Assembly (NCBI RefSeq): GCF_015732155.1
Contig: NZ_WIQK01000001.1
Location: 1,312,001-1,376,000, forward strand
Origin: Pectinatus sottacetonis
Lineage (GTDB): Bacteria; Bacillota; Negativicutes; Selenomonadales; Selenomonadaceae
Length of the DNA stretch: 64,000 bases
Direction: 5' to 3'
Part shown: in pieces, positions 1,983 through 3,505 of the stretch
Numbering within the stretch: position 1 is the stretch's first letter
How the letters are laid out: each line of letters begins with the position of its first letter
Notes under the pieces: model-generated
The model's database searches: none
Seen by the model: the letters and a program-made list of their open reading frames with translations, nothing else
Told to the model about the DNA's origin: nothing
Translations under genes and position numbers: made by a program

Positions 1983-2149
1983 ATGTTTTCCTCCAAATAA
2001 TTGATAATGATTTTCAATAGCATAAACAATTATAATATAAATGATAATTGTTTTTAATAATAAAATAAAAAAATCTTAAAATATATATAATATTTATGGA
2101 AATAAAGAAAAATCTTGAAGGATAAACAACAAAACTATTTTTTGTTAAG

Positions 2150-2428
2150 TTATACACAACTTATACACAATTTTGTTGATAAGTGGATAAAATTGTGTAT
2201 AAGTTTTTGGAGAGTATTATAATTATTGTATTAAATTATCCACAAGAGAAAAAATATAGTGTTGATAACTTTAAAAAAAGTATTTTTGTAGTAAATAAGT
2301 TATGCACAAAATTATCAACAGGCTGTGGATAATTTAATAAAAGCACAACTATATATCATAATAGAACCTTATGGTTAAAGGATTTATAGAAATAAAGATA
2401 ACTACCTATAATTAGATAGTTATCAACA
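2150..2428. other. DnaA-box cluster, candidate chromosomal origin (oriC) or DnaA-titration site
   Basis: Six 9-mers fit TTATNCACA exactly: 2150-2158, 2161-2169, 2194-2202 (minus), 2236-2244, 2300-2308 and 2324-2332 (minus). Five more differ by one base: 2174-2182 (minus), 2182-2190 (minus), 2260-2268 (minus), 2312-2320 and 2420-2428. The sites occur in both orientations with short spacing, as in bacterial origins. The cluster lies in a gene-free 977-bp region. Genes on its left point left and the first genes on its right point right. Very AT-rich DNA follows (2429-2900) and could serve as an unwinding element. No dnaA, dnaN or rpmH is nearby, so a non-origin DnaA-binding locus remains possible. 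Confidence 0.6.
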
Positions 2429-2875
2429 AAGAGTAAACGTATACAAAATATATGGTAGTATGTTTTTGCGGAGTGTGTGTAAAAAACACATGCAATGTTT
2501 TATTGTAAATACGGTAAAGCTTTTATTAAAAGGCTTTATCGTATTTAATAAAATATTTATAATTTGGTGTATGTATAATAAGGATAGATGTATTTATTTT
2601 TTAGTTGTGGATAATAATAGAATAGACAATAATAAAATGGATATTATAAATAGTATTAATATAAAAAATTCCTGTTTATGTAATAGCTATATGTGAATAA
2701 GGATATAGCTGATTTTGTTACTTTTTTATTTAGCAATAATTATTATTTAAAAATAAAAAAAATTATAGGAAAATAAATATTTAAGATAAAAAATGAAAAC
2801 GCTAGAAATAATGAGATAAATTCGTAAAAAATATTAGTTAATCCTAAATATAGAGATTTTATTTTTAAGTAATAA
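2429..2875. other. AT-rich gene-free stretch beside the DnaA-box cluster, with one hairpin
   Basis: No credible gene is seen here. An open frame at 2460-2696 has low-complexity, Ile/Asn-rich coding and no ribosome site. A near-perfect 13-bp inverted repeat (2508-2520 with 2533-2545, one mismatch) forms a hairpin around TTTTATTAAAAG. The rest is almost entirely A and T and would melt easily. Confidence 0.5.
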
Positions 2876-2890
2876 TTATTATAATTATAA
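2876..2890. promoter_or_regulatory. Candidate Per box upstream of rubrerythrin
   Basis: The 15-mer TTATTATAATTATAA matches the Bacillus PerR box TTATAATNATTATAA at all but one defined position. It lies 70 bases before the rubrerythrin start. Rubrerythrins are common PerR targets in anaerobic Firmicutes. The surrounding AT-richness makes chance matches plausible. Confidence 0.35.
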
Positions 2891-2959
2891 ACGTCAAAGA
2901 TAAAGACAGCTTATAGTAAGGCTGGATAATATAGTACATAAATTGGAGGAATATTTATT

Positions 2960-3505
2960 ATGAAAAAATGGGTTTGCAGCGTTTGTGGTTATGTCTATGA
3001 AGGAGAACAGCCACCTGAGCAATGTCCTATTTGTAAAGCTCCTGCTGCTAAATTTGTAGAACAGACCGGTGAACTTGTATTTGCTGACGAACATCGTGTC
3101 GGAATAGCTAAAGGTGTTGATGAACGTGTGGTAGAAGGTCTGCGTCAGAATTTTAGTGGTGAATGTTCCGAAGTAGGGATGTATCTTGCTATGAGCCGTG
3201 TGGCTGAACGTGAAGGATATCCTGAAATATCAGAAGCTTATAAGCGCTATGCATTTGAAGAAGCTGAACATGCTTCCAAGTTTGCTGAATTGCTTGGTGA
3301 AGTTGTTACTGATAGTACTAAGAAAAATCTAGAAATGCGTGTAGCAGCCGAACATGGTGCTTGCCAGGGTAAGCTTGATTTAGCTAAATTAGCTAAAGAA
3401 TTGAACTTGGATGCTATTCATGATACTGTTCACGAAATGGCAAAAGATGAAGCCCGTCACGGGTGTGGCTTTAATGGACTCTTAAAACGTTATTTTGGTA
3501 AATAA
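2960..3505 (+). CDS. Reverse rubrerythrin (rubredoxin domain first)
   Basis: A 181-residue cytoplasmic peroxide-reducing protein. The N-terminal rubredoxin-like domain has the iron ligands C6, C9, C22 and C25 in CSVCGY and CPICKAP. A ferritin-like four-helix di-iron domain follows, with Glu/His motifs [27 protein letters not shown] and DEARHGCGF. This order is the reverse of classical rubrerythrin and matches the clostridial oxygen- and peroxide-defence proteins, which reduce hydrogen peroxide using NADH-derived electrons. The start has GGAGGA 10 bases upstream. It is a single-gene unit with its own strong terminator; a PerR-like box lies upstream. Confidence 0.93.

Follow-up and report, generated by a model that had tools for sequence, protein, structure and literature searches.

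A DnaA-box cluster upstream of a rubrerythrin gene is probably one of an origin-proximal set that titrates DnaA, and is not the replication origin

Does a dense cluster of DnaA boxes that lies away from dnaA mark the origin of replication, or does it control initiation from a distance? The window analyzed here, a stretch of 64,000 nucleotides (C1:1312001–1376000) from a genome of 2.69 Mb (chromosome given as 2.6 Mb), contains such a cluster at window positions 2150–2428. A preliminary description proposed either a candidate oriC displaced from dnaA or a second locus at which DnaA binds, similar to datA or DARS. This interpretation is partly supported by the analysis below, which also guards against a mistaken inference: the place where DnaA boxes are densest on a chromosome is not necessarily where replication starts.

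All 11 DnaA-box-like 9-mers previously counted in these 279 bases were found: six exact copies of TTATNCACA, four of TTATCAACA, and one of TTATCCACT, the last two being one-mismatch forms of the exact box. On the plus strand, exact boxes are located at 2150–2158 and 2161–2169 (both TTATACACA), at 2236–2244 (TTATCCACA), and from 2300 (TTATGCACA), with TTATCAACA variants from 2312 and at 2420–2428. The minus strand carries TTATCAACA variants from 2174 and at 2260–2268, the TTATCCACT variant from 2182, and exact boxes from 2194 (TTATNCACA) and 2324 (TTATCCACA). Two further exact boxes on the minus strand, TTATCCACA at 2606–2614 and TTATTCACA at 2692–2700, lie beyond the span first described. Several boxes are arranged in larger units. 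Positions 2158–2205 form a perfect 17-bp inverted repeat composed of DnaA boxes (arms 2158–2174 and 2189–2205), the minus-strand boxes starting at 2174, 2182, and 2194 make up a 29-bp head-to-tail module (TTATACACAATTTTATCCACTTATCAACA, 2174–2202), and TTATGCACA, TTATCAACA, and TTATCCACA follow one another in 12-bp steps in a second three-box module with + + − orientation (2300–2332).

The cluster occupies a 977-bp AT-rich intergenic region (1983–2959) between a DUF3793 gene on the minus strand (1413–1982; Pfam PF12672, E 2.6e-53) and a rubrerythrin gene on the plus strand (2960–3505; Pfam), and AT content reaches 80% in 2020–2959, so that the AT-rich, divergently flanked setting is as originally described. 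A 78-aa ORF at 2460–2696 gave no match in a Pfam search, and an Rfam RNA search of the cluster region found none. Thirteen boxes including variants were observed in window 2084–2959 against 0.13 expected, the maximum among 3000 dinucleotide-preserving shuffles of this sequence being 2. The genome contains 196 exact boxes. A scan for at least three exact boxes in 300 bp, covering the 192 of these listed by position, returned five places on the chromosome; window 2150–2428 is the densest, with six, and all five, including two at oriC, fall between −8 and +161 kb from dnaA.

The dnaA gene itself (C1:1259864–1261288) lies 52.9 kb to the left of the cluster, just beyond the window edge, preceded by rnpA, yidC-like, and trmE-gidA-rsmG-like genes and followed by dnaN (names assigned by sequence likeness and gene order). 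Box clusters flank dnaA on both sides (1259573–1259733 and 1261292–1261456), the bipartite arrangement also known around dnaA in B. subtilis. Past the last boxes of the dnaA–dnaN gap, a short GC-richer spacer is followed by a run of six trio-like units, TAGTAGTAATAGTAATAG, on the minus strand (~1261469–1261486). This is the same order as in the B. subtilis unwinding region, which comprises boxes, a GC-richer spacer, and trios (PMC5742627, PMC13220808). An exact-run scan for at least four TA[AG] units found none at the cluster; near dnaA it gave clear runs in the window genome and in genus member G003 and weak ones in G002 and G004, and is only suggestive in these relatives.

GC skew, computed from 126 contiguous kb plus sampled stretches, agrees with this placement. 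The cumulative minimum within the 126 kb is at 1262903, beside dnaA, and in sampled stretches of at least 5 kb the skew is mostly negative to the left of dnaA and mostly positive rightward to ~2.35 Mb. Across the same data there is no turn at the cluster (1314150), where the curve is still rising. The strand switch reported at this locus holds for the divergent genes but is local only, and the skew check put forward in the preliminary description, with a minimum elsewhere named as the outcome that would count against an origin here, places that minimum at dnaA. Because dnaA with its bipartite boxes and the adjacent skew minimum lie elsewhere, the reading of the cluster as oriC is unsupported; the replication origin is in its usual place next to dnaA, not at window 2150–2428.

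The cluster is nonetheless conserved. Each of the five genus members, the window genome (G000) and G001–G004, has a box cluster upstream of this same rubrerythrin gene. The rubrerythrin protein is 93–94% identical in the four other genomes, which also carry DUF3793, flavodoxin, and chemoreceptor genes on the cluster's other side. Global pairwise alignments told little about the five intergenic regions, whose DNA is so AT-rich, and box counts were therefore compared with shuffles: including variants, G001 has 4 boxes, G002 7, G003 5, and G004 9, against about 0.1 expected, counts reached by 0 of 3000 shuffles. In G002 and G004 several kb are inserted between DUF3793 and the cluster, which still adjoins rubrerythrin, and in G003 the orientation of the segment with respect to dnaA is reversed. 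In the four genomes with cluster and dnaA on one contig, they are separated by 52.9 kb (window genome), ~39 kb (G002), 28 kb (G003), and 37 kb (G004). The head-to-tail module 2174–2202 differs little among G000, G001, and G002, and the + + − module 2300–2332 recurs in G004 and, with its middle box degenerate, in G002. Box number and order differ among the species, from 4 to 13 boxes. At the rubrerythrin loci of other genera there is 0 or 1 box each, and a cluster in 0 of 25.

Two other segments of this intergenic region are similar among relatives. Window 2739–2951, upstream of rubrerythrin, is 68–71% identical in the four relatives and contains TAATAATTATTATAATTATAA, possibly a Fur/PerR-type operator. 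Window 1990–2084, upstream of DUF3793, is 81–82% identical in two relatives and contains GATAATGATTTTCA, a putative Fur-type operator by its resemblance to the consensus.

The rubrerythrin-locus cluster has company: with it, the extra clusters of the window genome number four, located roughly −8, +53, +160, and +191 kb from dnaA. The cluster at 1251917–1252134, with five exact boxes, is 7.7 kb to the left of the box cluster upstream of dnaA; in 5/5 genus genomes its flanking genes are an IMP cyclohydrolase-like gene and the one that follows rsmG. That at 1421306–1421543 (four exact boxes) lies between Dak2/FakA-like and mqnA-like genes, again in 5/5, and that at 1452514–1452556 (two exact boxes and one variant) between genes named by eye as NRAMP-like and MgtC-like in 4/5, with G000, G001, G002, and G004 examined there. 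Many copies of the latter two clusters have the box layout + [12] + [22] −.

The closest known system, closer than datA or DARS, is the group of oriC-proximal DnaA-box clusters (DBCs) of B. subtilis (Okumura 2012), as described in PMC5295017 and PMC4447404. There, as in the window genome, several multi-box clusters lie outside oriC, mostly in intergenic DNA and most of them near oriC, which is itself bipartite and surrounds dnaA. B. subtilis has six such clusters; removing all of them causes early initiation (PMC5295017, PMC13220808), restoring one partly relieves it (PMC5295017), and the strongest DnaA-binding regions in vitro include these clusters (PMC4447404). The gene neighborhoods differ between the two organisms, and the role of the window genome's four clusters, −8 to +191 kb from dnaA, is a predicted one. 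With boxes clustered outside oriC above chance and four extra clusters near the origin, the locus shares those features of the B. subtilis clusters that sequence can test.

By analogy with B. subtilis, it is likely that the window cluster is an extra-oriC, oriC-proximal DnaA-box cluster working by titration of DnaA, which we consider the most likely mechanism, and that it is probably one of several clusters kept in the genus near the origin that soak up DnaA to time replication. We infer from that system both DnaA binding here and an effect on initiation. DnaA would bind the boxes cooperatively, and the locus would be copied soon after initiation, doubling the sites. As the locus would be duplicated early in the cell cycle, the doubled sites would lower free DnaA by taking up free (ATP-)DnaA, and the next initiation would be delayed, as is thought for the B. 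subtilis clusters. The differences in box number and order among species, and the confinement of the cluster at the rubrerythrin gene to one genus in the sample, count against this reading. Titration, transcriptional regulation, and effects on the nucleotide state of DnaA cannot be separated on sequence alone.

The main rival to titration is transcriptional control of rubrerythrin. DnaA would act at the cluster mainly as a transcription factor on this gene, and perhaps on DUF3793-flavodoxin, and would thereby tie genes for oxidative stress or iron to the state of replication. The cluster does stay close upstream of rubrerythrin despite the insertions on the DUF3793 side, and in B. subtilis, DnaA is an activator of sda and seemingly a repressor of several genes at such clusters (PMC4447404). 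However, the three sister clusters adjoin unrelated genes, the rubrerythrin loci of other genera are without the cluster, and the rubrerythrin promoter is probably further to the right, near the conserved segment 2739–2951. As the main role, transcriptional control is thus unlikely, although it deserves some weight; it and titration could both hold.

A DARS-like site, promoting release of ADP from DnaA, is considerably less probable. The modules 2150/2161/2174 and 2300/2312/2324 each have one box opposed to two co-directional ones, an orientation pattern like that of the E. coli DARS core (PMC5742627) and of the three-box units of DARS1 and DARS2. The spacing does not fit: the E. coli DARS2 core, located with the help of the deletion primers that PMC4585315 gives for its flanks and measured from boxes at L204 1636, 1650, and 1662, is + [14] − [12] − from start to start, whereas the modules of the cluster have [12][12] and [13][11]. 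DARS2 served for this comparison, since E. coli 815000–817500, examined for DARS1, contained no recognizable core. Moreover, a similar triple ([11][12]) is found upstream of dnaA in the window genome, and the opposed-box triple is therefore not specific to a role outside oriC. Of the earlier suggestion of a second DnaA-binding locus like datA or DARS, the general class stands, the DARS core spacing does not, and the B. subtilis clusters are a closer match. Like datA, the locus is a non-coding DnaA-box cluster away from oriC and broadly kept in relatives; datA, for its part, depends on IHF and stimulates the hydrolysis of ATP. In Streptomyces coelicolor, a chromosomal box cluster that likewise lies outside oriC represses untimely initiation (Smulczyk-Krawczyszyn 2006, as cited in PMC5742627). 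Least credible is a chromosomal origin displaced to the cluster, which has the most exact boxes among the places found (192 of 196 boxes listed) in AT-rich DNA between divergent genes but is ruled out by the position of dnaA between two box clusters as in B. subtilis, the box, spacer, and trio-like run in the dnaA–dnaN gap, the skew that rises from its minimum through the locus, and the trio scan.

Studies of extra-oriC DnaA-box clusters exist for B. subtilis, E. coli, and Streptomyces, and a literature search for DnaA boxes in Negativicutes or Selenomonadaceae turned up no relevant paper. A set kept at corresponding loci throughout a Selenomonadaceae genus, with one of its clusters shared across genera, suggests more widespread titration-type control among Firmicutes than these models indicate, and the clusters give concrete loci for deletion or footprinting. 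The cross-genus member is the −8 kb cluster, which spans at least five other genera because it is also present in G023, G024, G033, and G077 and, with the three-box module, in G017 and G021. Occurring in at least six genera of the family, it is more widely kept than the rubrerythrin-locus cluster. It is possible to speculate, though the odds are low, that a conserved set of origin-proximal DnaA-regulating clusters, built from the recurrent three-box module, is peculiar to this diderm Firmicutes family, and that one of them also couples rubrerythrin expression to DnaA state. Among 101 family genomes, the module pattern TTATNCACA-N3-TTATNCACT-(N)TATCMACA has matches in 11, at most one per genome, and its reversed control has 0; the pattern is found in four genera besides that of the window, at other loci. 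In another genus, 12 DnaA boxes lie within ~320 bp (G027:C27; L210 5867–6182) on the downstream side of an amino-acid permease gene, with dnaA on a different contig of that genome.
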